Assembly: GCA_027012955.1 (NCBI GenBank)
Contig: JALUYL010000048.1
Coordinates: 1 to 58,248, forward strand
Reading direction: 5' to 3'
Length of the DNA stretch: 58,248 bases
DNA from: Sulfurovum sp.
GTDB taxonomy: Bacteria > Campylobacterota > Campylobacteria > Campylobacterales > Sulfurovaceae
Made by a program: the position numbers and the translations under genes. Below, piece by piece: positions 769 to 38,666 of the stretch. Positions within the stretch are counted from its first letter, which is position 1, and the number at the start of each line of letters is the position of its first letter. Under the pieces are notes generated by a model. That model was not told where the DNA came from. It searched no databases and saw only the letters and a list, made by a program, of their open reading frames with translations.

Positions 769-851
769 TACACCTTTAGTGTGAAAGAGTGAAAGTGTTG
801 TTTGTGCAGTGGTATCTAAGATGCTTTTATAAAAATTTAAACCTATTTTGC

Positions 852-975: not shown

Positions 976-1176
976 ATGAGAAAAGAAATTCACCCAAATT
1001 ACGTAGAATGTAATGTAACATGTGCTTGTGGAAACAAGTTTGAAATTAGAACAGACAAAGCAGAAATGTCAATCGATATTTGTAATGAATGTCACCCATT
1101 CTTTACAGGTTCTGAGAAAATTCTTGATGCTGCTGGTAGAGTTGAGAAATTTAAAAGCAAATACAAATTGTCGTAA
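976..1176 (+). CDS. rpmE: 50S ribosomal protein L31
   Basis: A 66-aa protein beginning [20 protein letters not shown], characteristic of bacterial L31 (bL31). Cys residues at VTCACG and [11 protein letters not shown] form the zinc-binding C+ type arrangement, CxC...CxxC, so this is the zinc-containing paralogue. HPFFTG is the conserved family motif. The length is normal. The ATG follows TTTTAGGAAATACA, giving an AGGA ribosome site. It precedes rsmI, as often in Campylobacterota, with a stem-loop between them. The overlapping 70-aa frame at 1022 is a shadow. Confidence 0.97.
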
Positions 1177-1193
1177 GACTTCACGTATACTTT

Positions 1194-1210
1194 TGGGGAC
1201 ATCTGTCCCC
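1194..1210 (+). terminator. Stem-loop between rpmE and rsmI
   Basis: GGGGACA-TC-TGTCCCC forms a perfect 7-bp GC-rich stem right after rpmE. A T-rich stretch follows about 10 nt later. It could be a weak terminator or attenuator, or a small REP-like palindrome; the missing direct U-tract makes termination uncertain. Confidence 0.4.
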
Positions 1211-1243
1211 ACTCTTCATTTATTTATTGCCTAAAGGCACCTT

Positions 1244-2053: not shown

Positions 2054-2094
2054 GATTAACCCCCTAAAAGCAAAAATTAGATAAAATCTATCTT

Positions 2095-3712: not shown

Positions 3713-3742
3713 ATACTACAGAATTTTTAAAGAGAGTACACA

Positions 3743-4969: not shown

Positions 4970-4971
4970 TT

Positions 4972-6234
4972 ATGGTAAAAATAGGAATACTCGGTGTCGG
5001 TACTGTAGGTGCTTCTGTAGCAAAGATATTAGAAGAAAATGCAGACATCATTGAAGCACGTGCGGGTAAGAAGATAGTTGCTAAGTCTGGTGTGGTGAAA
5101 AACCTTGCTAAAGACAGAGGCGTTTCTATCAAGCTATCTGACAATCCATTAGATGTGGTAAGTGACCCAGAGATAGACATCGTAGTAGAGCTTATGGGTG
5201 GGGTTGAAGAGCCATATGCCTTAGTAAAGAAAGCACTTGAAAATGGCAAAGCAGTTGTTACTGCAAACAAAGCACTTCTAGCCTACCACCGTTACGAACT
5301 CCAAGAGATAGCTGGAGACATACCTCTTATGTATGAAGCAAGTACGGCTGGAGGTATCCCTATTATCGGTGCTTTGCGCACGGGACTTTCTGCGAATCAT
5401 ATAGAGTCTATTCAAGGTATTATGAATGGTACGTGTAACTATATGCTTACTAACATGATAAACAATGGTGCAAAATATGAAGAGATACTCAAAGAGTCTC
5501 AAGAACTAGGCTACGCAGAAGCTGACCCTACGTTTGATGTGGGTGGGTTTGATGCGTCACACAAGCTACTCATCTTGGCAAGTATCGCGTATGGCATAGA
5601 TGCAAAACCAGAGGATATTCTCATAGAGGGGATAGAAAACATCACAAGTACCGATGTAGATTTTGCCAAAGAGTTCGGTTATGAGATTAAGTCTTTAGGT
5701 ATCGCTAAAAAAGTAGGTAATGGCGTAGAACTACGTGTACACGCAACGATGATACCTGCAGACTCTATGATAGCCAAAGTTGATGGTGTGATGAACGCTG
5801 TGACTGTAGTAGGTGACCGTGTAGGGGAGACCATGTATTATGGACCAGGTGCTGGTGGAGATGCCACAGCTTCTGCTGTTATCTCTGATATCGTAGACAT
5901 CGTACGTGGAAACCAAGGACCGATGCTAGGTTATAAAAAGGGCTTAGAGTCAGGACTTAAACTTCTACCTAAAGAAGACATCGTGACACAGTACTACCTT
6001 AGACTTGAGGTTGCAGATGAGAGTGGTGTATTAGCCAGTATCACATCAACACTTGGTGAGTTCGGCATTTCTATAGAAGCTATGTTACAAAAGCCTTCTA
6101 GCACTTTTGATAGAGCAAAACTTCTCTTCACTACGCACAAGTGTAAAGAGAGCGAGATGCAAGAGGCTATGACTGCACTTGGCAAGCTTGATGTTGTTCA
6201 TGGTGAGATTGCTATGATGAGGATTGAGAAGTAG
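4972..6234 (+). CDS. hom: Homoserine dehydrogenase
   Basis: 420 aa. It reduces aspartate semialdehyde to homoserine, the branch point to threonine and methionine. The N-terminal Rossmann motif GILGVGTVGASVAKIL, the catalytic segment ANKALLAYH, GIMNGTCNYML and the GYAEADPTFDVGGFDASHK motif are all present. The C-terminal ~75 residues (YYLRLEVADESGVLASITSTL) are an ACT domain, implying feedback control by threonine. The monofunctional, ACT-containing length is standard. It follows the aminotransferase gene by 2 nt, so the two are cotranscribed. Confidence 0.96.
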   Translation: MVKIGILGVGTVGASVAKILEENADIIEARAGKKIVAKSGVVKNLAKDRGVSIKLSDNPLDVVSDPEIDIVVELMGGVEEPYALVKKALENGKAVVTANKALLAYHRYELQEIAGDIPLMYEASTAGGIPIIGALRTGLSANHIESIQGIMNGTCNYMLTNMINNGAKYEEILKESQELGYAEADPTFDVGGFDASHKLLILASIAYGIDAKPEDILIEGIENITSTDVDFAKEFGYEIKSLGIAKKVGNGVELRVHATMIPADSMIAKVDGVMNAVTVVGDRVGETMYYGPGAGGDATASAVISDIVDIVRGNQGPMLGYKKGLESGLKLLPKEDIVTQYYLRLEVADESGVLASITSTLGEFGISIEAMLQKPSSTFDRAKLLFTTHKCKESEMQEAMTALGKLDVVHGEIAMMRIEK

Positions 6235-6259
6235 ATAAGGGGTAAATGATACGATTATA

Positions 6260-23462: not shown

Positions 23463-23849
23463 TTAATGTACCGCATAATAGCTATGAATAAAGGTGAGTT
23501 CTTTGTCTGTCTGAAGAGGGATACTTGCCTGTGTCGACCCATTGTTGTCATGTATGATGAGTGTATTGTTCTCAACATTTAAATGTTGTTTTCCCCATGT
23601 ACGTTCGAGTCTTTCAAACTCTTTGAAAACGGTCATATTGGTTGGCTTTTCTTCAAACTTTTTATCTTCTTTACTTTTAATGGTAAGCCCACCTAGACGT
23701 TTATCAAGATAGTAAGGACTATACTTTTGCACCGCTTTATAGATACGTTCATTTTTCGCAGTAGGCTTACTTGAGATAAATGCCAAAATAGCCAAACCAA
23801 AAAAAGCGGCAAAGAGTGCGAAGGGAAGATATTTTCTTAGAGATTGCAT
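23463..23849 (-). CDS. Membrane-anchored protein of unknown function
   Basis: 128 aa. A N-terminal membrane anchor (YLPFALFAAFFGLAILAFIS, residues 7-26) is followed by a soluble, charged domain (KNERIYKAVQKYSPYYLDKRLGGL ... FIHSYYAVH), probably periplasmic. It is followed directly by the 62-aa two-helix protein. The start is divergent from the FNR-box-controlled gene at 23982, with about 130 nt between. Function unknown. Confidence 0.65.
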   Translation of the reverse strand: MQSLRKYLPFALFAAFFGLAILAFISSKPTAKNERIYKAVQKYSPYYLDKRLGGLTIKSKEDKKFEEKPTNMTVFKEFERLERTWGKQHLNVENNTLIIHDNNGSTQASIPLQTDKELTFIHSYYAVH

Positions 23850-23900
23850 AGTATAACCTTATATTTTCAAGTAGTATAGAATTTTTTAACCTATAAACAC

Positions 23901-23914
23901 TTGATGAATATCAA
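23901..23914. promoter_or_regulatory. Crp/Fnr-family site upstream of the 121-aa membrane protein
   Basis: TTGAT-GAAT-ATCAA, a perfect dyad. Its centre (23907.5) is about 42 nt before the start predicted from TATGAT at 23938-23943, the class II activator position. Confidence 0.75.
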
Positions 23915-23981
23915 CAGCTAAACCCAAATATCTATGGTATGATTTGTCATTAACACAAAAATCTTGCTAAAAGGTGGAAAC

Positions 23982-24347
23982 ATGTATAACTTTTTTTATT
24001 TGGAAGGTGCCTATCTTATATTAGGTGCTTTTGCACTGCTTATTACACTGTTTGTAACGACTAGACCTTTTATGTCTAAAGGTGCTGTGAAAAAAGGCTT
24101 ATTTTGGGTCTCTTCCGTCATTGCCGTGATGGTTGCTGCACATTATACGATCACTAGCAATCGTATGACCGAAGTTGCTTCTGCATTTGACCAAGATAAG
24201 ATAATTATTTGTGAAAGTAGAGCAACACGAAAAGTCGCACAAACTGTTTTGATCCAAAAATCCAACGAATGGTTGCTCAAAGATAATAACTTTATTTCTC
24301 CTAATTTTAGCAGACCTTTTTTTATCGCAAGATGTATTGTAAAATAA
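23982..24347 (+). CDS. Membrane protein in the denitrification region, unknown
   Basis: 121 aa from the ATG at 23982 (AAAGGTGGAAAC ribosome site); the track start at 23964 is a TTG inside that site. Two hydrophobic helices, LEGAYLILGAFALLITLFVTT and GLFWVSSVIAVMVAAHYTI, precede a soluble C-terminal region with two Cys (IICESRAT and IARCIVK). No family recognised. A TTGAT-N4-ATCAA site upstream places it under the same control as nor and nap, so a role in nitrate/NO respiration is inferred from regulation and position. Confidence 0.65.
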   Translation: MYNFFYLEGAYLILGAFALLITLFVTTRPFMSKGAVKKGLFWVSSVIAVMVAAHYTITSNRMTEVASAFDQDKIIICESRATRKVAQTVLIQKSNEWLLKDNNFISPNFSRPFFIARCIVK

Positions 24348-24404
24348 TGCATCTTTGCCAACTATCTCAATTGTAACTTTTGTTATACATTATTTCTCCT
24401 TTCC

Positions 24405-24418
24405 TTGATACAAATCAA
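24405..24418. promoter_or_regulatory. Crp/Fnr-family site of the nor operon
   Basis: TTGAT-ACAA-ATCAA perfect dyad with centre 24411.5. A -10-like GATAATAC begins at 24441, which puts the site near -41.5, as in class II activation. Confidence 0.8.
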
Positions 24419-24510
24419 GCTATCTACTTCCCAAACAAGCGATAATACTCTTATGCCCTAGGAGTCCTTATGGATATTCTTTTGCAAATAGACATTTAAC
24501 AGGAGCCAAA

Positions 24511-24933
24511 ATGGATACGTTGATAGTAAGACCAGAGATAGCGTTAGATCAATTCTTACCTATCTTTGTCGAATCAACATTAGTACTGGTATTTGGAGTG
24601 GGATATGCAGCAGTTATTACACTCTCCAAAATGGGTTATTTTTCCAAAAAATGGATGACTGTTGGATATCTATTTTGGGTATTACAAACATACTTCTTGT
24701 ATGACTTTGCTGTGCTTATCCAGAGTAACCACTTTACGATGAAAGTCCTCATGGTTACGATGGTAATCTATCTTTTTGTGCCACATCTTTACTTTCATTT
24801 AGTAGATGAGGCAGAACGAAGATATGGTGATAGTGATGATATGATAGAAGATATAAAATGCGACCAGTCGTATGAGCCAACTGCTGAAGTTATCGAAGAG
24901 TATACCTTCAGGTGTGACTCAGCGTCAGCGTAG
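24511..24933 (+). CDS. Three-helix membrane protein at the head of the nor operon
   Basis: 140 aa with a CAGGAGCC ribosome site. Three hydrophobic helices (FVESTLVLVFGVGYAAVITL, MTVGYLFWVLQTYFLYDFAVLI, VLMVTMVIYLFVPHLYFHLV) are followed by an acidic tail. I do not recognise a family; its position before norC and the FNR-type site suggest an assembly or electron-transfer accessory. The last ~25 residues (CDQSYEPTAEVIEEY...) are encoded by a repeat whose relative lies intergenically at 48978, so the original stop was probably lost by repeat insertion. Confidence 0.7.
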   Translation: MDTLIVRPEIALDQFLPIFVESTLVLVFGVGYAAVITLSKMGYFSKKWMTVGYLFWVLQTYFLYDFAVLIQSNHFTMKVLMVTMVIYLFVPHLYFHLVDEAERRYGDSDDMIEDIKCDQSYEPTAEVIEEYTFRCDSASA

Positions 24934-24959
24934 TTTTTTGGGCTTTGCTCAAAAAACGT
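24861..24959 (+). repeat. CGACNNGTCG repeat, copy R1 (inside the end of a gene)
   Basis: Starts CGACCAGTCGTATGAGCC, shares AACTGCTGAAGTT and CTCAGCG.CAGCGTAG with the copy at 48978, and ends in the hairpin TTTTTTGGGC-TTT-GCTCAAAAAA. It has about 22 nt that R2 lacks. It supplies the final codons and stop of the 140-aa gene and ends 30 nt before norC. Confidence 0.75.
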
Positions 24960-24988
24960 CAATAAATAATAAATAGGAGGGAATACAC

Positions 24989-25663
24989 ATGGCAAATAAA
25001 AATGTTTCAGTTTGGTCGAGCATTTCGTTTTGGCGTCGTTCTGCGGCTTGGGTAACTGGGTTTGCAGCTATATTGCTAGTTTGGCTTACATTTGATTCTG
25101 TAGGGCAGATTAGTATGGGAACAGATGCTGATTTACAAAAGGCAGTGGCTGAAAAAAAAGAGACAAGAAGAGTCCCCGCACCTACGGTCATCAATTATAA
25201 AATTGGTTATGCAATGGATGCAAAAAGAGGACATGAGGTGCCAACAATTGGTGAAAAAGAACTATTTTTTGGAAAAGAGTGGAGTGAAAAAGATGCAGCT
25301 GCATTGCTGCATCTCGGTAAACTGACTTCTCAGGCAAAGAACTGTATGGATTGTCATACGCTTTTAGGTAATGGTGCATATTATGCGCCAGATCTTACCA
25401 AGGCATGGCTGGATCCTAATTGGGAAAAGTTTATGTACTTTGGGCAGAAAACAAAAGAAGAGGGTATAGCTTACTTTTTGCAACATCCAGCTAAGAGTGG
25501 TGTTCATACACGAAAAATGCCAAATCTTGGTATCACAGCAGAAGAAGCAAAGGGATTGGTAGCATTTCTCAAACATATGAGTAGCATTGATACCAATGGT
25601 TTCCCTAGAAACTTCTCAAAAACTGTGAATCAATTCAAAACAGGAGGCTCAAATGCTCACTAG
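24989..25663 (+). CDS. norC: Nitric oxide reductase cytochrome c subunit
   Basis: 224 aa. An N-terminal membrane anchor (SAAWVTGFAAILLVWLTF, about 13-31) is followed by a periplasmic domain. The single haem c motif is CMDCH (residues 119-123), and HTRKMPNLGI provides the distal Met. LGNGAYYAPDLTKAW is a NorC signature. It passes electrons to NorB. A strong AGGAGGG site precedes the ATG. It overlaps norB by 11 nt. Confidence 0.95.
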   Translation: MANKNVSVWSSISFWRRSAAWVTGFAAILLVWLTFDSVGQISMGTDADLQKAVAEKKETRRVPAPTVINYKIGYAMDAKRGHEVPTIGEKELFFGKEWSEKDAAALLHLGKLTSQAKNCMDCHTLLGNGAYYAPDLTKAWLDPNWEKFMYFGQKTKEEGIAYFLQHPAKSGVHTRKMPNLGITAEEAKGLVAFLKHMSSIDTNGFPRNFSKTVNQFKTGGSNAH

Positions 25664-27101
25664 TATTAAAACAAATCACTTTGAAGGTAATAAGTCAAAA
25701 GAACTGGGGATGATGTATTTTAGAGTAGCGATGATACTCTTTGGTGCACAACTACTTTTCGGACTTGTGGCAGCGTTTCAGTTTATTTTTCCAGGTTTCT
25801 TATTTGAAGTACTTGATTTCTCTGTAGCGAGAATGGTACACATCAATGCCTTGGTTGTGTGGATGCTCTATGCCATGATAGGTTCAGTGTATTTTTTAAT
25901 GCCAGATGAAACTGGGGTTGAAACAGTAAACATTGGACTTGGAAAACTCGCGTTTTGGGTACTGACCGCAGCAGTAACTGTGGTGGTACTTGTGTTTATT
26001 CTTGTGCAAGTAGGTCCAGGTACAGAGTCATCAATCTGGCTTATCAACGAAGGTAGAGAGTATCTTGAAGCACCACGTTGGGCAGATATCGGCATTGTAG
26101 TTGTAGTATTGACATTTTATTGGAATGTTTTTGCTACGTTTATGAAAGCCAAAGTCAAAACAGGTGTGATGCAGGTACTTGTGGCTGACCTTATGGCACT
26201 TGCGGGTCTTTACCTTGCAGGTATGTTCTTTACAGACAATATCTCCATGGATCAGTACTGGTGGTGGTGGGTAATACACCTTTGGGTTGAAGCAACATGG
26301 GAAGTATTTGTGGGTGCATTAGCAGCGTATGCACTGATTAAAATTATTGGTGCTAAACGTGAAATCGTTGAAATGTGGTTGTGGATTGAAGTATTGATGC
26401 TTTTTGGATCAGGTATTTTAGGTCTAGGTCACCACTATTTCTGGATTGGAACACCTGAGTATTGGTGGGAAATTGGGGCACTGTTCTCTGCACTAGAACC
26501 AGTACCATTGGTAGCAATGTTTGTTCACGTACTCTATGACTGGGGTAAAGAGCAAGGTGCTGCACATGCAAGAGGTGAAACAGGATCTATTATGAAAAAT
26601 GGTCCAGCGATGTCTTGGATAGTATTGAATGCCTTTGGTAACTTCTTGGGTGCAGGTATATGGGGATTCTTCCATACGCTACCTCAAGTGAATATCTATA
26701 CGCATGGTACACAGTTTACAGCGGCACATGGTCACTTGGCATTCTTTGGAGCGTATGCAACTATCTTGGTAGGAATGATGTATATGGGTATTCAAAATGC
26801 CTATGGTATCAAGATTATGAAAGCAACATTCAAGTCTAAAATGGGTGTCTTCCTTATTGCCTTTGGTGTGATGGGAATGACGATTGCCTTGACGATTGCA
26901 GGATATGAACAAGTACTCATCGAAAGGGCAGAACTTGGTGCAGGATGGAATGCGTTCTTTACTGCACAAAATATGCCTTGGTACGTTCAAGCGCAACTTT
27001 GGAGAGCCATTATGGGTGTGGTAACCTTTGTAGGGTTTATCTATCTTGTCTGGGATATGCTGACCATTGGTAAAGCACAGGCTGGACAAACAGAGAATTA
27101 A
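25653..27101 (+). CDS. norB: Nitric oxide reductase large subunit (cNOR)
   Basis: 482-aa integral membrane protein of the haem-copper oxidase superfamily with about 12 helices. Conserved His-bearing helices are visible: ARMVHINALVVWML, WWWWVIHLWVEATWEVFVGAL (with the Glu of the NO site), ILGLGHHYFWIGTP and FTAAHGHLAFFGAYATI. It reduces two NO to N2O at a haem b3/non-haem iron centre. It is the short cNOR form, without the qNOR N-terminal extension, matching the adjacent norC. Regulated with the 140-aa gene and norC from the TTGAT-N4-ATCAA promoter. Confidence 0.96.
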   Translation: MLTSIKTNHFEGNKSKELGMMYFRVAMILFGAQLLFGLVAAFQFIFPGFLFEVLDFSVARMVHINALVVWMLYAMIGSVYFLMPDETGVETVNIGLGKLAFWVLTAAVTVVVLVFILVQVGPGTESSIWLINEGREYLEAPRWADIGIVVVVLTFYWNVFATFMKAKVKTGVMQVLVADLMALAGLYLAGMFFTDNISMDQYWWWWVIHLWVEATWEVFVGALAAYALIKIIGAKREIVEMWLWIEVLMLFGSGILGLGHHYFWIGTPEYWWEIGALFSALEPVPLVAMFVHVLYDWGKEQGAAHARGETGSIMKNGPAMSWIVLNAFGNFLGAGIWGFFHTLPQVNIYTHGTQFTAAHGHLAFFGAYATILVGMMYMGIQNAYGIKIMKATFKSKMGVFLIAFGVMGMTIALTIAGYEQVLIERAELGAGWNAFFTAQNMPWYVQAQLWRAIMGVVTFVGFIYLVWDMLTIGKAQAGQTEN

Positions 27102-27127
27102 GAAAACGCAGTACTACTGCATATAAG

Positions 27128-27149
27128 AGGAGAGGCATGGTCCTCTCTT
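27128..27149 (+). terminator. Stem-loop after norB
   Basis: GAGAGG-CATGGT-CCTCTC followed by TTTATTT. Likely a terminator or attenuator between norB and the 50-aa ORF. Confidence 0.45.
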
Positions 27150-27169
27150 TATTTACATAAGGAGTAAAT

Positions 27170-27322
27170 ATGTTATTTGAATCATTTACAGATGTTGTTC
27201 CAAGTTTTTTTGGATGGCTCAATCAAGGGCCAATGACATTGACAATATTTTTACATACATTGGTTATCTTACCGATGTTTTGGATTTATCAAAGTGAAAA
27301 AAAGAAATTAAATAGCAAGTGA
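27170..27322 (+). CDS. 50-aa single-helix membrane protein after norB
   Basis: Too short for the ORF track. It has a good ribosome site (AAGGAGTAAAT) and reads MLFESFTDVVPSFFGWLNQG, then the helix PMTLTIFLHTLVILPMFWIY and a basic tail (QSEKKKLNSK). This amphipathic start plus one helix and Lys-rich end looks like a small oxidase-type accessory subunit. The position 68 nt after norB suggests a role in NOR stability; no family is recognised. Confidence 0.6.
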   Translation: MLFESFTDVVPSFFGWLNQGPMTLTIFLHTLVILPMFWIYQSEKKKLNSK

Positions 27323-27389
27323 TATAGCGCATCTTAAAGAGAGAAAAGAGTACCATTTAATGATACATCTCTTAAAGGATGCCAAATAG

Positions 27390-28715
27390 ATGAATATTAT
27401 GATTGCAGGGGCAGGGACTGTCGGTTACAGTCTTGCCCAAACACTCTCGTATACCCATAATGTCATGGTGATAGATAAAGATATCAACAAGCTCAACAAG
27501 CTAGATGAAGATATCGACATCTTAACATTACATGGAGATATAGAAAATCCAAAAAATTACCAATCTTTGACATTAGACAGTCTTGACCTTTTTATCGCAG
27601 TGACAGATTCGGATGAAGCAAATTTACTCTCTACACTCATCATAGAAGATGCAGTTGAAGTGAAAAAAAAGATTATACGACTTAAAAATGAGGGGTTTTT
27701 AACCAGTCATATTTTAGAAAAACTCTCCATTGACTACGCAGTATTTCCCGACATTACAACAGCCAACAAGGTCAAGGCACTTCTGGCATTTCCCAAAGCA
27801 AATAACGTTAAATCTTTTCACCAAACCAAACATAAATTGATTTCGATTCGTGTGCAATACGAAGAGGATAGCGTTTATACTGTAGATATGCTCAATAATG
27901 ATGAGGTATCTATCGTAGGGGTAGAACGTGAAAAGTCATTTTTTATGCCTGAGTCACATACTGAAGTGTTAAATGATGATTTAGTATATCTCTTTGGTAC
28001 GCCTGAAGCGATAGAAGCACTTTCGTTAAAGTTAGATAAAAAGATGCCTACCAAGATAAAAAAGATTGTGATATTTGGTGCCAATACGCTCGCACAAAAG
28101 ATTGCTAAAGTGTTATTGGATAAAAAATTAGAAATCAAAATGATTGAGAAAAATATAGACTACTGTAAAGAGGCTTCAGCATTTCTACAAGGTAAAGTAA
28201 CCATCATTAATTCTTCTCATGAAGACCATCACCTTTTTGAAGATGAGGGGCTTAAAAATGCAGATATGGTCATTGCCGCAGCACAAAATGATGAAAAAAA
28301 TATAGTGAAGTGCATCGAAGCAAAAGAACATGGCATACAAAAAGTTGTCGCAGTAAACAATGACAAAGACTATTACAACCTCATGCATAAGATGGGGGTC
28401 GTTGTTGTGAGAGGGAGTAAAGCAGGGGCACATTATGCCATTTTAGAAAAGATATCATCGAGTTCTATTATCACACAAAGACATTTTTGTGGAGGGAGAG
28501 GGTTGTTGTTTATCCGTAAAATATATGCGAACTCTATGTTGATAGGAAAAACACCTCATAAAATCAGTGCAGACATTGCGACAGTGCTTGTGTTGAGAGA
28601 AGAAAAAAATTATACACTCGATACCATTGAAAGTTTTATGCAGGGAGACAGCATTGTGACTTTTGGTATGTGTGAAAATAAAGAAGAGATAGAACAGTGG
28701 ATATATACGCTTTAA
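27390..28715 (+). CDS. trkA: Trk potassium uptake, NAD-binding regulatory subunit
   Basis: 441 aa. It has two tandem RCK units: an N-terminal Rossmann motif MNIMIAGAGTVGYSLAQTL and a second one near KIVIFGANTLAQKIAKVLL (about residue 225), each followed by a smaller TrkA-C ligand domain. It sits on the cytoplasmic face and gates TrkH in response to NAD(H)/ATP. Overlaps trkH by 19 nt. No FNR-type site is seen before it, so it seems unrelated to the nor/nap control despite lying between them. Confidence 0.93.
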   Translation: MNIMIAGAGTVGYSLAQTLSYTHNVMVIDKDINKLNKLDEDIDILTLHGDIENPKNYQSLTLDSLDLFIAVTDSDEANLLSTLIIEDAVEVKKKIIRLKNEGFLTSHILEKLSIDYAVFPDITTANKVKALLAFPKANNVKSFHQTKHKLISIRVQYEEDSVYTVDMLNNDEVSIVGVEREKSFFMPESHTEVLNDDLVYLFGTPEAIEALSLKLDKKMPTKIKKIVIFGANTLAQKIAKVLLDKKLEIKMIEKNIDYCKEASAFLQGKVTIINSSHEDHHLFEDEGLKNADMVIAAAQNDEKNIVKCIEAKEHGIQKVVAVNNDKDYYNLMHKMGVVVVRGSKAGAHYAILEKISSSSIITQRHFCGGRGLLFIRKIYANSMLIGKTPHKISADIATVLVLREEKNYTLDTIESFMQGDSIVTFGMCENKEEIEQWIYTL

Positions 28716-30151
28716 AAAATATTTTTAAATTTGTCTCCACGATTGGTATGGCATTGAGTCTATTTTTTACAACAGTACTCATGGTAGGTTTGATATATGA
28801 TGAAAATATGAAGCTTTTTTTCTACTTTGATACAGGCTTGTTTATTTTAAATCTTTTGGTATTTTTGTCGCTAAAAAAACATAAGATGAAACTCAGCATT
28901 AAGGGTGGTATTCTTTCTGTCAATCTTATTTGGTTACTTTTAGGTGTGGCAGGTACCATACCACTTATGCTCTACACAGAAGCCAACTTTGCTGATGCTT
29001 TTTTTGAATCAGTCAGTGGGTTTACTACCACAGGTGCAACCATCTTTTCTGATATAGAATCTTTACCAAAGTCCATACTCTATCTACGAAGCCTGATGCA
29101 TTGGCTGGGCGGTATGGGGATTATTGTCTTAGGAGTAGGGTTGTTCTCACTCATTAACCCAAGTGGGTCTATGACCCTGTTTAAAGCAGAATCCACTGGG
29201 ATTAAAATGGAAAAGATGACCCCTAAAGTGAAAGATACTGCCATGAGACTGTGGGGCATTTATATACTCTTTACCCTTGTGGATGCAGTGGCGCTTAAAG
29301 TAGCAGGTATGAGTTTTTTTGATGCGATTAACCATGCCTTCTCCACCATATCTACAGGAGGATTTTCTACGAAAAATGCCTCTTTGGGTTACTATCATTC
29401 TAGTCTCATTGTCTGGATAACTACATTTTTTATGATACTTTCAGGTATCAACTTTCTTGCACACCTAAAACTTTTTTCTTCTGGTAGGTTTGATGGATAC
29501 AAACGAGAAGAAGTGCTTTGGTATTTGGGTATTTTTATCATACTCTCTTTGCTACTTGGCAGTGCAGATATTGTCATAGACAAAGATAACCAATTTCATG
29601 CCTTTACCCACGCTTTCTTTACGATAGCCTCAGTACTTACCACCACAGGTTTTGCCACACTCGATTATGCTCAGTGGGGGCATGTAGCTATTACGGTGAT
29701 TTTTATAGCGATGCTTATAGGGGGGAATGCAGGTTCAACTGCAGGTGGGGTGAAAGTCATACGTTACATTGTTTTGTTTAAAAATATCACTTTACAGTTT
29801 AAAAAGATACTCCACCCCAATGCGATTGTGGGGGTATTTATAGATGGACAAAGAACAAGCTCTCAAACTATTAGCTCCACCACAGGGTTTATCGTGCTTT
29901 TTGTCATGACCAATATGTTGATTACACTCTACCTTTTTGCCAGAGGGTTTGATGCTATGACGGCTGTCTCTACTGCGGTGGCAACGGTGGGAAATATAGG
30001 TCCGGGATTTTCTCTCACTGGTCCTTCTGAGAATTATGCATTTTTTAGCGATGCAGATAAAATGGTACTCTCTATGGCGATGATTATAGGAAGGCTTGAA
30101 TTTTATACGGTATTTTTACTCTTTAGCCGTGATTTTTGGAAAAAGTTTTGA
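28697..30151 (+). CDS. trkH: Trk potassium transporter membrane subunit
   Basis: 484-aa channel-like transporter starting at GTG 28697 inside trkA. The four selectivity-filter-like repeats are visible: SGFTTTGATIF, STISTGGFSTKN, SVLTTTGFATLD and ATVGNIGPGF. About 10 transmembrane helices. The GGNAGSTAGGVKVIRY loop is the conserved TrkH intramembrane region. It moves K+ under control of TrkA. The coupled overlap argues for equal expression. Confidence 0.95.
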   Translation: MDIYALKNIFKFVSTIGMALSLFFTTVLMVGLIYDENMKLFFYFDTGLFILNLLVFLSLKKHKMKLSIKGGILSVNLIWLLLGVAGTIPLMLYTEANFADAFFESVSGFTTTGATIFSDIESLPKSILYLRSLMHWLGGMGIIVLGVGLFSLINPSGSMTLFKAESTGIKMEKMTPKVKDTAMRLWGIYILFTLVDAVALKVAGMSFFDAINHAFSTISTGGFSTKNASLGYYHSSLIVWITTFFMILSGINFLAHLKLFSSGRFDGYKREEVLWYLGIFIILSLLLGSADIVIDKDNQFHAFTHAFFTIASVLTTTGFATLDYAQWGHVAITVIFIAMLIGGNAGSTAGGVKVIRYIVLFKNITLQFKKILHPNAIVGVFIDGQRTSSQTISSTTGFIVLFVMTNMLITLYLFARGFDAMTAVSTAVATVGNIGPGFSLTGPSENYAFFSDADKMVLSMAMIIGRLEFYTVFLLFSRDFWKKF

Positions 30152-30228
30152 TTGACGTATATCATATGTTTTTATATCATCATTATTAGAGGTATAATAA
30201 AGAGTGAGAATACTTTGTAAGACTATGT

Positions 30229-30234
30229 TATAAT
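30229..30234 (+). promoter_or_regulatory. -10 of the Crp/Fnr regulator gene
   Basis: TATAAT in GTTATAATTTC, 29 nt before the ATG at 30263. The following Crp/Fnr box overlaps the expected start of transcription. Confidence 0.6.
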
Positions 30235-30237
30235 TTC

Positions 30238-30251
30238 TTGATTTATATCAA
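30238..30251. promoter_or_regulatory. Crp/Fnr-family site overlapping the regulator's own transcription start
   Basis: TTGAT-TTAT-ATCAA perfect dyad placed immediately downstream of the -10 at 30229. This position is that of a repressor, so the regulator likely limits its own synthesis. Confidence 0.75.
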
Positions 30252-30262
30252 GGATATCGTAT

Positions 30263-30916
30263 ATGTATTGTATTAAAGATTTACCACTTTTCTCAGGCTT
30301 AAATGACCAGCAGTTGACGCGACTACAGTCAGAACTCCACATTCACCAGTATGACAAAGAGAGTATTGTCTTTTATGAAGGCGATGAGAGTGAGTACCTT
30401 TACATCTTACTCGATGGCTCCGTAAGACTCTATAAAACAGCGCCCAAGGGCAACCAAATACATATGCATAACTTTCAAGCTCCCGAAGCCATAGCACTTT
30501 TTGTGGCATTTGAAAATATACCTTTTCCTGCAACCTGCGAACTCTTAACTGATGGACACATAGGCTTACTCCCTCTTAATAAATTTCGTGATTGTCTGAA
30601 TGATATACAGTTTTCGTCTTCTTTGGTAAAAGCACTCTCTAAACGTATGAAACTTTTGGCTACACTGCTGCATAAAGAAACCATCTACTCTACAGAAGCA
30701 AAGATAGCAGACATCCTCTATACTAACCCCAGTATCTTTGAACGTCTTAAAAATAATGAAATAGCCTACATGCTAAACATGACACCCGAAACACTCTCGC
30801 GCATCTTGACTAAGTTTAAAAAAGAAGAAGTGATTAAGATAGATGAACATGTAGTGACTATCTTGGATGAAGAAGCCTTACGATATGTCATTGAAACCAA
30901 TACCATGCAAAAGTAA
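30263..30916 (+). CDS. Crp/Fnr-family transcriptional regulator of nitrate/NO respiration
   Basis: 217 aa. Residues ~10-110 form the effector beta-barrel (GDESEYLYILLDGSVRLYKTAPKGNQ). A dimerisation helix follows, then the C-terminal HTH with NNEIAYMLNMTPETLSRILTKFKKE. The recognition helix keeps E-x-x-S-R, which in Fnr reads the TTGAT half-site. There are only three scattered Cys, so no Fnr-type FeS cluster; NO or nitrate sensing as in NssR/Dnr/NnrR types is plausible. TTGAT-N4-ATCAA boxes in front of nap, nor, the porin and this gene point to those as targets. Comparable in role to NssR of Campylobacter. Confidence 0.88.
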   Translation: MYCIKDLPLFSGLNDQQLTRLQSELHIHQYDKESIVFYEGDESEYLYILLDGSVRLYKTAPKGNQIHMHNFQAPEAIALFVAFENIPFPATCELLTDGHIGLLPLNKFRDCLNDIQFSSSLVKALSKRMKLLATLLHKETIYSTEAKIADILYTNPSIFERLKNNEIAYMLNMTPETLSRILTKFKKEEVIKIDEHVVTILDEEALRYVIETNTMQK

Positions 30917-31021
30917 CATCAATTCTATTGAACATATTGTCGCTATAAATAAACAATTTTCTTCGTCAATTATTTCTATTTTTTCATAAATATATTTAAA
31001 TAATTAAAATCATATATTTTT

Positions 31022-31035
31022 TTGATATATATCAA
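31022..31035. promoter_or_regulatory. Crp/Fnr-family site upstream of the porin gene
   Basis: TTGAT-ATAT-ATCAA perfect dyad, centre 31028.5; TATGCT at about 31058 would be the -10, so the site is near -41. Confidence 0.75.
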
Positions 31036-31100
31036 TGAATCCTATTTTTGATAGTGTTATGCTGATAATGTATATGATTTCCAATAGTTAAGGAGGAAAA

Positions 31101-32387
31101 ATGTCATTCACTCAATCTAAAGTTTTCAAAAAAGCACTCTTACTCTCAGTGGTAAGTTCACAAATAATTTTTGCAGGAGGAGAGATTAACCCCGTGGAAG
31201 AGACGGCACTTGCCCCTATAACAGAGTCATTTTCTTTTCTTTCAAATGTGCAGGCACATGGAGAGTTGCGTCCTCGTTATGAGTATGTCAATACAAATAA
31301 TGCAACAGGTAATGCAAGTGCCTTTACCAATAGACTTATGTTGGGGGTCAGTGCAGATTTATTGAATGTAAATGGTTTATCTGTCTATTTGGAAGCCATT
31401 AATGTAGCTGGTTCTGGTAATTATTGGGATTTATCTGCCAGTGATTCTGATAGAGGTGTCTACAATGTAGTGGCAGACCCTTCTCAAACACGTATTACTC
31501 AAGCCTATGTCGATTATGCTTTTTCGGACTCTTTACTGAGAGCAGGACGCCAAGGGGTGAACCTGGACAATCAACGTTTCATTGGTACGGTAAACTGGAG
31601 ACAAATGCCTCAGACCTATGATGCAGTAGCATTTTCAAACCACTCCATCGAGGGGCTTTCTCTTATGGCAGCGTATGTATGGCATGTGAATACCATTTTT
31701 ACGAATGACTCAGTACTTCCTAATGGCACACCTAAATCTTCAGGCTTTGATACAGGAACAGTTTTACTCCATGCAACATATAAAATAAATGATGCCTTTG
31801 CGCTTACTGCATATGATTACATGATAGAGGATGTACATGATACGTATGGTATCGCAGCGACTGGTAAGTTTGCATTGGGTGGAGGTACAGGGTTGTCTTA
31901 TCGTGCAGAGTATGCAAAACAGACTGACCCAACATTTAATAAACTAACCACTAATAAGACAGCAGATGCTGAGTATTATAACATTGAAGCTACGCTTAAT
32001 ATGAGTGGTTTTTTAGCAGGTGTAAGATATGAAGTTTTAGGTGCTGGGAATGGTGGTAATGCTGCCTTTAGTACACCTCTTGCGACACTCCATGGGCAAA
32101 ATGGTTGGGCTGACATGTTCTTAGGGACACCAACTAACGGTCTTGTAGATGTGAATGGTATGATAGGGTACAAAGCAAAAGGTTTTGGTGTAGCTAAAAT
32201 AGTCTACCATGATTTCTCTAGTGACAGAGGAAGTATAAATTATGGTACAGAGATAGATGTACTTTATAAAAATAAAATTTCAGCAGTGAAAGGGCTTTCT
32301 GGACTCCTAAAAGCGTCATTTTATAATGCAGATACTTTTAAAGTAGACACTACAAAATATTGGGTAATGCTTGATTACAAATTTTAA
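31101..32387 (+). CDS. Outer-membrane porin, Opr/alginate-export type
   Basis: 428 aa with a signal peptide (ALLLSVVSSQIIFAGG). The mature protein is built of alternating beta-strands: HGELRPRYEYVNTNNATGNASAFTNRLMLGV, TQAYVDYAFSDSLLRAGRQGVNLDNQRFIGTVNWRQMPQTYDAV, and ends in WVMLDYKF with a terminal Phe, the outer-membrane insertion signal. The family is found near nap genes in vent epsilonproteobacteria as far as I know. Its FNR-type box and the position before napA imply a role in anion or nitrate entry under denitrifying conditions. A strong AAGGAGG site precedes the start. Confidence 0.8.
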   Translation: MSFTQSKVFKKALLLSVVSSQIIFAGGEINPVEETALAPITESFSFLSNVQAHGELRPRYEYVNTNNATGNASAFTNRLMLGVSADLLNVNGLSVYLEAINVAGSGNYWDLSASDSDRGVYNVVADPSQTRITQAYVDYAFSDSLLRAGRQGVNLDNQRFIGTVNWRQMPQTYDAVAFSNHSIEGLSLMAAYVWHVNTIFTNDSVLPNGTPKSSGFDTGTVLLHATYKINDAFALTAYDYMIEDVHDTYGIAATGKFALGGGTGLSYRAEYAKQTDPTFNKLTTNKTADAEYYNIEATLNMSGFLAGVRYEVLGAGNGGNAAFSTPLATLHGQNGWADMFLGTPTNGLVDVNGMIGYKAKGFGVAKIVYHDFSSDRGSINYGTEIDVLYKNKISAVKGLSGLLKASFYNADTFKVDTTKYWVMLDYKF

Positions 32388-32587
32388 TATTCATAACGCA
32401 TAGTTTTCTATGCGTTAGTGACTTCAATATATTAGACTTCTCACTTCCTTGAGTTTTGCAAGAAGTCTATTCTCCCCTTTCCTTTCTTTTTCATCAAATT
32501 TATTTATTGACTTTTGACTGTTAAATAGAATTATTTATCCACCAAAATACTTTGATTATTCATCAGCGTGATTGTATACATGCATAA

Positions 32588-32601
32588 TTGATATACATCA
32601 A
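32588..32601. promoter_or_regulatory. Crp/Fnr-family site of the nap operon
   Basis: TTGAT-ATAC-ATCAA perfect dyad, centre 32594.5. TATTCT near 32625 would serve as -10, giving the class II spacing. It leaves a ~28-nt leader to napA. Confidence 0.8.
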
Positions 32602-32662
32602 TTATAGTATAGGATTATCGTGATATTCTTAAAATGTATATTAATTTTAATAAGGAGGAACA

Positions 32663-35500
32663 ATGTCATTAAATAGACGTGATTTTTTGAAAAATTCAGC
32701 AGCAGTGGCAGCAGCAGGTGCGGTAGGTATTACTGTCCCACAAGAAGCTGAGGCAGCAGCAAAACAAGCTGAATCTAAATGGAGATGGGACAAGGCGGCT
32801 TGTCGTTTCTGTGGTACTGGTTGTGGGATTATGCTTGCGACGAAGAATGGTAGAATCGTTGCAGTAAAAGGTGATCCTGCAGCTCCAGTAAATAGAGGAC
32901 TGAATTGTATTAAGGGTTACTTTAATGCGAAGATTATGTATGGGGCAGACAGACTTAAAACACCACTGCTTCGTATGAATGATAAAGGTGAATTCGATAA
33001 AAAAGGTAAGTTTAAAGCAGTAAGCTGGAAACGTGCCTTTGATGAGATGGAACTTAACATTAGAAAAGCACTGAAGGCGTCTGGTCCTGAAGGTGTGGGT
33101 ATTTTTGCTTCTGGACAGTACACTCTTATGGAAGGGTACGCTGCACAGAAAATGATGAAAGCAGGTTTCCGTTCTAATGCTATCGACCCCAATGCAAGAC
33201 ACTGTATGGCATCTGCGGTTGTTGGTTTCTATCAAACCTTTGGTATTGATGAGCCATCAGGATGTTATGATGATATTGAATTGACAGATACGATTATCTC
33301 ATGGGGTTCAAACATGGCAGAGATGCACCCTATTTTATGGTCAAGGGTCACAGATAGAAAACTCTCTAACCCAGACAAAGTAAAAGTAGTCAATATCACA
33401 ACATATCGAACCAGAAGTTCAGATTTGGCAGATATGGAGATTATCTTTACCCCAAATACTGACTTGGTATTGTGGAATTATATTGCACGTGAAATCGTTA
33501 TGAGAGATGATAAAGAAAAAATTATCGATTGGGATTTTGTGAAAGAGCATATGGTCTTTGCAACAGGTCCTGCGAACATTGGGTATGGTATGAGACGTGC
33601 AGGTGAAAAATCTATCACACCAGTCAATGCAGATGGTTCAGCTGGTAAGTATTCTGCACTTGAGATGCAAACGATTAACAAAGAGATGTCTAAAGTACTT
33701 TCTGAAGATGAAGGAACAGCATTGGCTCCGTATGGTTACAAAGCTGGTGAGACTATGAAAAATACAGCAGGTACGCTCAATCACTGGGAAATCTCTTTTG
33801 AAGAGTATAAAAAGTCTTTAGAGCCATATACACTTGAGTATACTGCTAGGGTAACCAAAGGTGATAAAAATGAGGACATCGAAGCATTTAAGAAAAAACT
33901 TCAAAAACTGGCGGATCTCTACATAGAGAAAAACAGAAAAGTGGTAAGTTTTTGGACGATGGGTATGAATCAACATACACGTGGTACATGGGTTAACACA
34001 CTTTCATACAATGTACACTTTATGTTGAATAAGCAAGCTAAACCAGGTTCTGGGGCATTCTCACTTACGGGTCAACCATCTGCGTGTGGTACGGCTAGAG
34101 AAGTAGGAACATTCTGTCACAGACTTCCTGCTGACTTGATGGTAAAAAACCCTAAGCATAGAAAAATAGCAGAGAAAAAATGGTCAATTCCAGAGGGTAC
34201 ACTGAACCCTGTAGGTAACCAACACATTATGAAAATTCATAGAGATATCGAAGATGGTGTCATTAAATTTGCATGGGTTAATGTATGTAATGCTTACCAA
34301 GATTCTGGGTCAGCCTCTCACTGGATAAAAGCAGCGCGTGAGATGGATAACTTTATCGTTACTTCTGACGGATACCCTGGTATTTCAGCAAAAGTATCGG
34401 ATTTGGTACTTCCATCGGCGATGATTTATGAAAAATGGGGTGCCTATGGAAATGCAGAACGTCGTACACAGCACTGGAGACAACAAGTACTTCCTATAGG
34501 TGACGCGATGTCAGATACCTGGCAGTGGGTTGAACTTTCTAAACGCTTTACTGTTAAAGATTTATGGGGTAAATATACACTTAGAAATAAAAAAGTATTA
34601 CCTGATGTCATTAAAGATGCATTAAAAATGGGATATACAGAAGATACAACAATGTATGACATCCTCTTTGCTAATAAAAAAGCAAAATCATACAAGATAG
34701 ACATGAAGAAATTCCCTCAACAAGGTTACGACAACTCAGAGTGTTTGGGTGACAGTAGAAATGTTAAAGGCTCAGATGGTAAAGTATTTAAGGGGTATGG
34801 ATTTATGCTCCATGAGTATCTCTTTGAAGAGTATGCAAGTTTTGGTAGAGGACATGGACATGACCTCGCACCATTTAATGTGTACCATAAAGTAAGAGGA
34901 CTCAAGTGGCCGGTTGTTGATGGTAAAGAGACGCATTGGAGATTTAATGTCAAGTATGACCCCTATGCAGCAAAAGCAGCTAAAGAAGCTGGCTTAAAAG
35001 ACTTTGCGTTCTATGGACCATTGGCTAAGGCATTGGCACAGGGTGATCTTAAAGGTATTAAAGACAAAAACAAAAAGTCACTTAAAAATAAAGCCAAAAT
35101 CTATGCAAGACCATACATGGAGCCACCTGAAACACCAGATAAAGAGTACGATACATGGCTCTGTACAGGGCGTGTACTAGAACATTGGCACTCAGGTACG
35201 ATGACGATGAGAGTTCCTGAACTCTTCAGGGCTGTTCCTGAAGCACTCTGTTACATGAATCCAAAAGATGCCAAAGCAAAAGGCTTCAAGCAAGGTAGTT
35301 TGATTTGGATAGATTCACGTCGTGGTAAAGTCAAAGCAAGAGTGGAGACACGTGGACGTAACAGACCACCACAAGGACTTGTATTTGTACCTTGGTTTGA
35401 TGAAAAAGTCTTTATCAACAAAGTATGTCTTGATGCGACATGTCCCATGTCTAAACAAACTGACTACAAAAAATGTGCAGTCAAACTCACTAAGGCATAA
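32663..35500 (+). CDS. napA: Periplasmic nitrate reductase catalytic subunit
   Basis: 945 aa. A Tat signal ([20 protein letters not shown]) exports the folded enzyme. [12 protein letters not shown]...GLNCIKGY binds the 4Fe-4S cluster, and [13 protein letters not shown] carries the Cys that ligates Mo of the bis-MGD cofactor. [17 protein letters not shown] and [21 protein letters not shown] are NapA-type. Reduces nitrate to nitrite in the periplasm. The length, with insertions relative to the ~830 aa E. coli protein, matches the epsilonproteobacterial form. An AAGGAGG site gives strong translation. First gene of the nap operon. Confidence 0.98.
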
Positions 35501-35505
35501 CAGAT

Positions 35506-36330
35506 ATGGCACACTCTGACGGCAGAAGAAACTTTATGGCGACAACCTTACAAAGCGTAGGGCTTGCTGCACTTGGTGGAATGTTGTGGAGTGGATATAC
35601 GGACAGTGTCAAAGCATCACCTTTGGTACTCAGACCTCCTGGTGCATTGAGCGAAAAAGATTTTTTAAGGGCATGTATCAAGTGTGGGCTATGTGCAGAG
35701 GCTTGTGTCAATAGAGAAACCAATAGAGATACACAAACAGGAGAACAACGTGAAGGTACGCTAAAAATGGCAAAAGGAGGCGACTCCTTACTCATTGGTA
35801 CCCCTTATTTTGTACCTCTTGAAGTACCTTGTTATATGTGTGAAGATATCCCTTGTGTGCCTGTATGCCCATCGGGAGCTTTAGATATGCCTAGTTTGCT
35901 CAATGAAAAGAAAGAGCTAGACATTAATAAAGCATCTATGGGCTTGGCCGTAGTACACAAAGAGTCATGTATCTCTTTTTGGGGTATACAGTGTGATGCT
36001 TGTTATAGAGCGTGTCCATTGTTAGATAGTGCGATTACGATTGAGTATCAAAAAAATGAGAGAACAGGTAAGCATGCCTATTTGTTACCGATAGTACATG
36101 ATGATGCATGTACTGGCTGTGGTCTTTGTGAAAAAGCATGTGTGACTGAAAAACCAGCGATTTTCGTGTTGCCAAATGCGGTTGCCAAAGGTAAAGTAGG
36201 TGACCATTACGTCAAAGGTTGGGATGCAAAGGACCAAGAACGTGTAGGCAATGCAAAAGCGATACATACACAGACAGAGCGAAGTGAAAAATCGCCTTCT
36301 GACTATCTCAATATGGAGGTAGAGTACTAA
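35506..36330 (+). CDS. napG: NapG quinol-dehydrogenase FeS protein
   Basis: 274 aa. GRRNFMAT at the N-terminus is a twin-arginine motif. Four 4Fe-4S cluster motifs follow: CIKCGLCAEAC, CYMCEDIPCVPVCPSGAL, CISFWGIQCDACYRACP and CTGCGLCEKAC. With NapH it forms the electron entry from menaquinol that replaces NapC. Starts 5 nt after napA and shares one base with napH (G/ATG overlap TAATG). Confidence 0.96.
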   Translation: MAHSDGRRNFMATTLQSVGLAALGGMLWSGYTDSVKASPLVLRPPGALSEKDFLRACIKCGLCAEACVNRETNRDTQTGEQREGTLKMAKGGDSLLIGTPYFVPLEVPCYMCEDIPCVPVCPSGALDMPSLLNEKKELDINKASMGLAVVHKESCISFWGIQCDACYRACPLLDSAITIEYQKNERTGKHAYLLPIVHDDACTGCGLCEKACVTEKPAIFVLPNAVAKGKVGDHYVKGWDAKDQERVGNAKAIHTQTERSEKSPSDYLNMEVEY

Positions 36331-37139
36331 TGAAAAATATGAAGTATCTACTCCTTAGACGGACAACACAGAGTGGAATTTTGTTTCTTTATTTTGCTGC
36401 AAATGCCTATGGTTGGCATATCTTAGAAGGCACCTTTGGTACTTCTATGCTCTTTGGTATTATCCCTCTGGCAGATCCGTACAATACCTTGCAGGTACTC
36501 GCAACAGGGTTTGTTTTAGGTTCGGATGTACTTTTAGGTGCAGTGATTATCACACTGTTTTATTTTGTGGTAGGTGGTCGTGCATTTTGTTCATGGGTTT
36601 GTCCTATCAACATGGTGACAGACTTGGCAAACTGGCTTAGACGTACATTGAACCTTGACAAAGAAGAGGTCAATTACCGTTTTTTAAAACGAAGTGCTAG
36701 GTATTGGCTTATGGTAGTAGGTCTTATTGTCTCAGCACTTGTAGGTGTGGCAGCGTTTGAAGTGTTTTCTCCTATTACCATCATGCAAAGAGGGATAGTC
36801 TTTGGTTTTGGTATGGGTGGGGCAGTTGTCCTTGCCATTTTCCTTTTTGACCTCTTTGGAGTGAAGAATGGATGGTGTGGACATTTGTGTCCTCTTGGTG
36901 CTGCATACTCTGTGATAGGAAGTCAAAGCCTTGTGAAAGTAAAGCATAACCATGAGAACTGTACTAACTGTATGGATTGTAAAGTCGTGTGTCCAGAAAA
37001 TCAGGTCTTACATATGATAAACAAGTCAAGCATTGCTGTAAGTGACGGTGAATGTACCAACTGTGGTAGATGTGTAGATGTGTGCAATGATGATGCATTG
37101 GAATTTGGAATTAGAAGTTTTACGAAACAGAGTCGTTAA
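36330..37139 (+). CDS. napH: NapH membrane quinol dehydrogenase subunit
   Basis: 269 aa with four to five helices. The cytoplasmic-side CSWVCPINMVTD and CGHLCPLGAAYS motifs (CxxxCP) are the NapH signature, and two 4Fe-4S motifs close the protein: CTNCMDCKVVCP and CTNCGRCVDVCN. It oxidises menaquinol and passes electrons to NapG. Overlaps napG by 1 nt. No napC is found in the operon, consistent with NapGH being the sole route here. Confidence 0.96.
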   Translation: MKNMKYLLLRRTTQSGILFLYFAANAYGWHILEGTFGTSMLFGIIPLADPYNTLQVLATGFVLGSDVLLGAVIITLFYFVVGGRAFCSWVCPINMVTDLANWLRRTLNLDKEEVNYRFLKRSARYWLMVVGLIVSALVGVAAFEVFSPITIMQRGIVFGFGMGGAVVLAIFLFDLFGVKNGWCGHLCPLGAAYSVIGSQSLVKVKHNHENCTNCMDCKVVCPENQVLHMINKSSIAVSDGECTNCGRCVDVCNDDALEFGIRSFTKQSR

Positions 37140-37161
37140 CAAAAATTATAGGAGGAAATAG

Positions 37162-38127
37162 ATGAAAAAAATAGTAAAAACCGTAGCAATTGGGGCATTA
37201 CTCGCTTCAACAAGTGCGTATGCTGTAGGTACTGCTGCCTGTGCAGGATGTCATGGGCAGTATTTTGAAAAAGCAGCATTGGGTAAATCGAAGATAGTCA
37301 AAGATATGCCACTCAAAGATATCGTGAAAGCACTTAAAGGCTACAAAGCAGGTACGTATGGTGGTGCGATGAAGCAAGTTATGGTGAACCAAGTGAAAGA
37401 TTTGAAAGAATCAGATATAGAGGCACTCTCTTTACTGATGAAAATCGAACATGGTACCCAAACAGAAAAAGCAACCACACATGCCGCTGCCGCTGCAGTA
37501 GCCGCTGCAGGGGGATCGTATATTGACCTTAATGCAGATGCTTCAGATGAGATGAGAATTGAGCAAGAAGATTTAGGAAATAGAAATACAGTTTCAGAAA
37601 AAGCACTGGGTCTTAGAAAGACTGCACTTGGAGATGAATCTGATACTACAGGGGTTAAAACAGACTATGATCGACCAGCTCCTGGACAAGCAAAACGCTT
37701 TGAAAGAGCCTATAAAGATGCGCCACCGATGATTCCTCATTCTGTGGATGGATTATTGCCAATTACCAGAGAAAACAATCAATGTCTTGGATGTCACTTG
37801 CCTGAAGTAGCAAAAAGTATGGGTGCAACACCTATCCCTGTGACACACTTTACAAACTACAGACCATTGACTGCTATGAATGATGGTTATGTGGTTAAGG
37901 GTGGAGAAGTACTTGGTTATGATATACAAAATACATCAGATATTAAGCTAGCCAAAGCAAAAAAATCTGATAGCTTGTATCAAGGTCGTTTTAACTGTAC
38001 ACAATGTCATGCCCCACAATCTAAAACAAAAACAGATGTGGCAAATACATTTAAACCAGACTTTGGTGACAGTACATTTAAAGCACACTCAAACTTGGCT
38101 GATGCTATGAATGAAGGTGTTGAATAG
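37162..38127 (+). CDS. napB: NapB fused to an N-terminal cytochrome c domain (three haems)
   Basis: 321 aa, about twice the usual NapB length. A signal peptide (AIGALLASTSAYA) is followed by a class I cytochrome c553-like domain with CAGCH at 27-31 and a Met (KIEHGT region). An Ala-rich linker (THAAAAAVAAAGG, about 111-125) joins it to a complete diheme NapB: RPAPPGQ-like RPAPGQAKRF, PPMIPHSVDG, CLGCH at 208-212 and CTQCH at 279-283. The NapB part receives electrons from NapGH and passes them to NapA. The extra haem domain may bridge this transfer. An AGGAGGAAATAG site decides the start. Confidence 0.92.
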   Translation: MKKIVKTVAIGALLASTSAYAVGTAACAGCHGQYFEKAALGKSKIVKDMPLKDIVKALKGYKAGTYGGAMKQVMVNQVKDLKESDIEALSLLMKIEHGTQTEKATTHAAAAAVAAAGGSYIDLNADASDEMRIEQEDLGNRNTVSEKALGLRKTALGDESDTTGVKTDYDRPAPGQAKRFERAYKDAPPMIPHSVDGLLPITRENNQCLGCHLPEVAKSMGATPIPVTHFTNYRPLTAMNDGYVVKGGEVLGYDIQNTSDIKLAKAKKSDSLYQGRFNCTQCHAPQSKTKTDVANTFKPDFGDSTFKAHSNLADAMNEGVE

Positions 38128-38666
38128 TGCAAAAAAAGGTTAGTGAAGTTGAACGTAGAAATTTTTTTACAGCACTAAAAAAACCTTTACAGCAAAATAA
38201 GGAAAACTCACCCTTAGTGGTGAGACCTCCTTATGGCTTAAACGAATCTCTTTTTCAGAGTGAGTGCGTAACGTGTGAAAGTAAAGCATGTGTGACTTCT
38301 TGTGATGAACAGATTATAATGATACAGGCAGATGGTATACCTATGCTTAACTTTGTAAAAAGTGGGTGTACTTTTTGTGAAGAGTGTGCCCATGCATGTG
38401 AACCCAATGTCCTAAATTTGAACCATACGCATACGGCTGAAAAACTCAATGCTACATTTCGCATAAGTACAGAGGGATGTGTGGCACATAATGGTGTGAT
38501 ATGCTTTTCATGTAAAGAACCTTGCATTGATGATGCTATACTCTTTAATGGTATGTTTAACCCTGTCATAGACATGGACAAGTGTACAGGCTGTGGATTT
38601 TGTCTGGGTAGATGCCCTACACTTGCCATAGATTTTACACCAACGATAGTAAAGGAACTTTCTTGA
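38127..38666 (+). CDS. napF: NapF cytoplasmic FeS protein
   Basis: 179 aa starting at GTG 38127, overlapping the napB stop by one base. It has four cysteine clusters: CVTCESKACVTSC, CTFCEECAHACEP, CVAHNGVICFSCKEPC and CTGCGFCLGRCP, with no export signal (VERRNFFTAL resembles but lacks a hydrophobic Tat core). NapF interacts with NapA before export and supports cofactor insertion or energises the system. The downstream ORF begins with a TTG overlapping its stop. Confidence 0.92.
   Translation: MQKKVSEVERRNFFTALKKPLQQNKENSPLVVRPPYGLNESLFQSECVTCESKACVTSCDEQIIMIQADGIPMLNFVKSGCTFCEECAHACEPNVLNLNHTHTAEKLNATFRISTEGCVAHNGVICFSCKEPCIDDAILFNGMFNPVIDMDKCTGCGFCLGRCPTLAIDFTPTIVKELS

Follow-up and report, generated by a model that had tools for sequence, protein, structure and literature searches.

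The 58,248-nucleotide (nt) contig JALUYL010000048.1 of the Sulfurovum sp. assembly GCA_027012955.1, called the window below and analyzed at its full length, carries a nor operon, a nap operon and, between them, a gene for a 217-amino-acid Crp/Fnr-family protein (30263-30916). Exact copies of the palindrome TTGAT-N4-ATCAA begin at positions 23901, 24405, 30238, 31022 and 32588. Pattern searches and gene positions confirm both these five coordinates and the intergenic placement of all five copies, as given in an earlier note on this DNA. We propose that the five palindromes are the operators of this one protein, a regulator of the Nss/DNR type without an iron-sulfur cluster, which would activate nap, nor, a porin gene and a divergent gene pair and would repress itself. 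We consider this reading very probable. The features concerned are the following, the palindromes being unstranded.

23463-23849, minus strand: orf128, predicted target without family match; a homologue in related locus L141 has the site at the same offset
23873-23878, minus strand: -10 box TATACT of the divergent orf128 promoter (matched 42-mer G000:C48:23873-23914:-)
23901-23914: putative operator TTGATGAATATCAA between divergent orf128 (minus) and orf121 (plus); exact match, with -10 boxes at +29.5 on the minus and +30.5 on the plus side
23938-23943, plus strand: -10 box TATGAT of the orf121 promoter
23982-24347, plus strand: orf121, membrane protein, predicted target without family match
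24405-24418: putative operator TTGATACAAATCAA of the orf140-norC-norB operon; exact match
24441-24446, plus strand: -10 box GATAAT of the nor operon
24511-24933, plus strand: orf140, small membrane protein preceding norC; homologues with the same site in L141, L154 and L171
24989-25663, plus strand: norC-like cytochrome c
25653-27101, plus strand: norB-like subunit of the haem-copper oxidase family (PF00115)
30229-30234, plus strand: extended -10 (TGTTATAAT) of the regulator gene, including TATAAT
30238-30251: putative operator TTGATTTATATCAA across the predicted +1 of the regulator gene, its 3' edge adjoining the ribosome-binding site
30263-30916, plus strand: 217-amino-acid Crp/Fnr-family regulator (Nss/DNR-like), helix P175-E-T-L-S-R180
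31022-31035: putative operator TTGATATATATCAA of the porin gene; exact match
31058-31063, plus strand: -10 box TATGCT of the porin promoter
31101-32387, plus strand: Opr/OprD-like outer-membrane porin
32588-32601: putative operator TTGATATACATCAA of the nap operon; exact match, included in the napA promoter alignment
32624-32629, plus strand: -10 box TATTCT of the nap promoter
32663-35500, plus strand: napA, catalytic subunit of the periplasmic nitrate reductase (NF010055, 1415 bits)
35506-38666, plus strand: napG, napH, napB and napF-like genes after napA, named from sequence reading

The number and form of the palindromes are distinctive. The window holds five perfect copies, whereas in 100 shuffled versions with dinucleotides preserved the average was 0.13 and the highest count 2. 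Allowing one mismatch yields 14 matches where 5.25 are expected, and the signal therefore resides in the perfect sites. We compared the window with 88 non-redundant related loci (1.23 megabases, Mb). These contain 91 copies of TTGAT-N4-ATCAA, against 0 to 16 (median 2) for each of 19 other orderings of the half-site letters, and only the spacer of 4 is enriched, the other spacers from 0 to 9 giving 3 to 11 palindromes each. When the window is added, 88 of 96 sites are intergenic, and the perfect sites precede napA (14 cases), the regulator gene (7), the nor gene orf140 (4) and the porin gene (3). In relatives they also precede sirohaem/haem d1-type genes, cytochrome c peroxidase, cytochromes and NrdD. 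When ten napA promoters are aligned, both half-sites are invariant, whereas much of the DNA around them differs.

The position of the sites within promoters is equally constant. The first base of the -10 box lies 29.5 nt from the site center in the nor operon (GATAAT), the porin gene (TATGCT) and napA (TATTCT), which places these sites at -41.5, the class II activator position. At the 23901 site, the offsets are 29.5 on the minus side (TATACT, orf128) and 30.5 on the plus side (TATGAT, orf121). Hence, four window sites stand at -41.5 or -42.5 as judged from a -10 box (nor, porin, napA and the divergent pair), and the activator placement about 41 nt before the predicted starts, as claimed earlier, is borne out. 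This geometry is conserved in relatives: among site-gene pairs of the related loci and the window, a TANNNT hexamer starts at +29.5 in 79, whereas other offsets average about 6. The earlier note had assigned the 23901 site to a membrane-protein gene. This holds for orf121 but is incomplete: the best -10 box there belongs to the minus-strand orf128, which had been overlooked, and since there are -10 boxes on both strands, the site is bidirectional and faces two divergent genes. Many Sulfurovum genomes (among them G013, G019, G023, G033 and G034) have sites with -10 boxes at equal offset on both sides.

Some of the genes behind these sites belong to families without annotation. The three small proteins around norCB (orf128, orf121 and orf140) have no Pfam or NCBIfam match; all three have same-site homologues in L141, and orf140 alone has them in L154 and L171. 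Another family, of 111 to 119 amino acids with the motifs C-PP-PMVNAM and NHKKPMGLL, is uncharacterized (L057:6593-6934 on the minus strand, L139:12526-12885 and L157:10559-10894). It has a perfect site at -41.5 in about 10 related loci, as a member of the regulon would, and a Pfam scan of one member gave no match.

The protein encoded at 30263-30916 has the features expected of the reader of these sites. A profile search found PF00027 and PF13545 (Crp helix-turn-helix) above cut-off. In a scan of genome contigs, its nearest relatives were from Sulfurovum, and no Wolinella or Nitrosophilus locus was among the matches. The recognition helix reads T-P-E-T-L-S-R, and E176, S179 and R180 are invariant in 15 diverse homologues, as is P-E-T-L/F-S-R across the regulator family. 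No cysteine occurs among the invariant or near-invariant columns of the alignment of these 15 homologues. The E-x-x-S-R helix and the lack of the FNR cluster cysteines, both pointed out before, thus hold. Family rules link residues 180 and 181 to site bases 3 and 6 (PMC1274295), and the proline and glutamate at these rule positions are consistent with a TTGAT site. A search of the genome turned up a single further Crp/Fnr protein (contig C87); its helix, S-R-S-V-V-S-R, lacks the glutamate, and control by this protein is disfavored.

The regulator and the sites also travel together. Homologues adjoin napA, often 180-190 nt off, or orf140-norCB, and 44 of 92 lie within 10 kilobases of nap or nor clusters, with short contigs counted as unlinked. 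Across 37 Sulfurovum genomes, the median number of composite matches (site plus -10 box) is 7 in the 22 genomes with a close homologue and 1 in the 15 without (Mann-Whitney p=2e-5), close homologues being those at E<1e-60, a threshold of our own choosing. The co-occurrence holds among genomes at least 90% complete (p=7e-4). Hence, genome-wide site counts follow the presence of the regulator.

As contig C48, the window forms part of a metagenome-assembled genome (MAG) of 1.716 Mb that is 76% complete and whose relatives are Sulfurovum. Pattern searches found 15 perfect sites in it, where about 4 are expected by chance. Ten lie outside the window: six within coding sequence, without a consistent -10 box, and four intergenic, each accompanied by a -10-like hexamer that starts exactly 29.5 nt from the center. 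Contig C96 holds two of these, before a second porin gene and a second napA, and the others precede the locus of a PAS protein (C80:18471) and a small secreted protein (C102:16996). If one mismatch is tolerated and a -10 box required, an FmdE-like/hemerythrin operon (C23) and ccoNO (C26) join the list, names that we gave from sequence reading. On this genome-wide count the sites are not equally frequent in unrelated promoters, as the regulon outlined in the earlier note presupposes. Its description as a local denitrification regulon needs amendment in two respects. The further sites in the genome make the regulon wider than local, and a search for nirS in the 76%-complete MAG did not find the gene, so that the full pathway is not demonstrated and denitrification here means nap and nor only.

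Two of these other loci deserve mention. On C23 (L177), an operon follows TTGACCTACATCAA, with TATAAT at +29.5. It comprises a gene for a multi-pass membrane protein along with FmdE-like, hemerythrin and DUF2249-like genes, all named from sequence reading, and is probably a nitrogen-oxide response operon. On C96 (L173, positions 1-6243), a second porin-napA-napB segment is about 85% identical to positions 30974-38233 of the window. It has a 79%-identical purF end upstream, lacks napG and nearly all of napH, and retains both operators and their -10 boxes. Either this contig stems from a second Sulfurovum that ended up in the bin, or the segment is a paralogous nap cluster that has decayed.

The fifth site stands at the regulator gene itself. 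It starts 3 nt behind the TATAAT at 30229-30234, its end is 12 nt short of the ATG, and it therefore covers the predicted transcription start, a repressor position. The site had been described as overlapping the start of the gene, which is right for the predicted +1 and not for the start codon. The arrangement is a property of one clade. The window protein belongs to a group of 15 members (support 100/100), 13 of which have a self-operator within 2 mismatches, whereas the DNA on either side is not conserved. This operator follows TATGnTATAA/CT at a distance of 3-4 nt and in most cases extends into the GGA of the ribosome-binding site. In six orthologues the self-site is perfect, lying behind the -10 box and 10-13 nt before the ATG. 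In the sister set of 57 sequences, the region ahead of the regulator gene never holds a match with 1 mismatch or fewer. In one relative (L051:8015-9823 of G012), the regulator gene is duplicated in tandem and both copies have the self-operator, one with a single mismatch. We also considered an RNA hairpin in the regulator leader and dropped it, as its left arm mostly precedes the predicted +1.

The conservation of the self-operator fits steric autorepression, to go by its placement. We lean toward the view that one nap-linked, Nss-type clade in Sulfurovum gained an operator for its own gene, joined to an extended -10 box and a ribosome-binding site, and may so have become a negatively autoregulated master switch of nap and nor, the sister clade having the same helix and no self-operator. 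In the literature cited here, we found no description of a self-operator with this form of autorepression. In the regulon as a whole, the active dimer would bind at -41.5 and activate, in class II manner, the nap and nor operons, the porin gene nearby and the divergent pair beside nor. It would also bind its own promoter across +1, just behind the extended -10, and because of this position would block its own transcription in a negative feedback. By analogy with NssA, NssB and NssC of Wolinella, the signal may be nitrate, nitric oxide (NO) or another nitrogen oxide.

Other explanations are less convincing to different degrees. Palindromes of this composition could arise by chance in an A+T-rich genome, and the six of 15 genome-wide perfect sites that fall in coding regions do look random. 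The excess over the shuffles, the specificity for one half-site and one spacer in related loci and the fixed -10 offset led us to reject a chance origin, whose probability is practically negligible. The 30238 site might instead activate something or be incidental, given that the palindrome is symmetric and repression is deduced from its position. Yet the window has no divergent gene on that side, the upstream neighbor being on the plus strand and reading toward the site. The site is also kept at its distance behind the -10 in the six orthologues and persists in 13 of the 15 clade members, whereas the sequence flanking it is not conserved. We thus regard an operator without autorepression as improbable.

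A second Crp/Fnr paralogue with the same helix, missing from the MAG, could read the sites, or two proteins sensing different nitrogen oxides could share them, as NssA, NssB and NssC do in Wolinella. Four genomes (G007, G008, G012 and G021) each have at least two such proteins, and a second clade of 45 members with the helix P-E-T-F-S-R is found near nap with the same sites. Against this, the MAG yielded only one protein with a P-E-T-x-S-R helix, and the closest relative (G018, 99% complete) has a single homologue, yet a perfect napA site, which argues against the need for two regulators. We judge a second reader possible but rather unlikely. Several points weigh against control by the single autorepressing regulator that we favor. 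At 76% completeness, the MAG may lack a second reader. Clade member L053 has no recognizable self-operator, and the divergent L122 has a 3-mismatch match only. The transcription starts are predictions from -10 boxes, and binding by this protein and the direction of each effect are likewise predicted, from the sites and their geometry.

How does this system compare with those already known? FNR of the E. coli type reads the same DNA half-site in class II geometry, and its gene is known to be autorepressed; it has cluster cysteines, whereas the window regulator has none at invariant positions. DNR of Pseudomonas senses NO via haem, which should not be assumed for the window regulator. Like the latter, DNR is a non-FeS Crp/Fnr protein, an activator of denitrification with the helix PETFSR (3dkw), and its box is similar to TTGAT-N4-ATCAA (PMC1274295). 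The DNR-type helix P-E-T-[LF]-S-R and a TTGAT-type site are both found here, but overall similarity is low (phmmer E=4e-9). The earlier note had likened the system to NssR/NnrR-type regulation. In function this fits, as NssR of Campylobacter jejuni is also a Campylobacterota Crp/Fnr regulator of nitrogen-oxide related genes. In specificity it does not: NssR has the site TTAAC-N4-GTTAA and residues A180/Q181 (PMC1274295), against P175/E176 and TTGAT here, and TTAAC palindromes number 0 in the window and 1 in the 1.23 Mb of related loci, against 91 for TTGAT. We rejected an NssR-type specificity on these half-site counts and helix residues, the better match being DNR and the Nss systems of Wolinella and Nitrosophilus.

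In Wolinella succinogenes, NssA, NssB and NssC raise the nitrate, nitrite and nitrous oxide (N2O) reductases upon nitrate, NO and N2O (PMC6682613). Two such regulator genes (NIL_RS03760/NIL_RS03815) stand beside nap and nor in Nitrosophilus labii, where exact TTGA-N6-TCAA sites begin 48-49 nt before the transcription starts of napA, norE and nosB (PMC11539149), i.e., with centers near -41.5 as in the window. These systems share with ours the Campylobacterota background, the Crp/Fnr fold and TTGA-N6-TCAA sites, at about -41.5 of nap and nor promoters here; adjacency of the regulator gene to nap and nor is shared with N. labii, for which it is shown. The match is one of sites, geometry and gene context, NssA/B/C being compared by published description. 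Unlike them, the window has one regulator gene linked to both nap and nor, and a perfect site over its own +1. According to a 2019 review of respiration in Campylobacterota, regulation in the free-living members is little known (PMC6682613). For Sulfurovum, a common sulfur-oxidizing nitrate reducer of vents and sediments, our analysis yields a precise predicted regulon, with a clear site, a promoter geometry, a putative autoregulatory loop and a list of uncharacterized targets. Since the site geometry is identical to that of N. labii, the system is a well-supported addition to known Nss-type regulation: this type of wiring was already described in related bacteria, and the Nss picture is extended rather than overturned.

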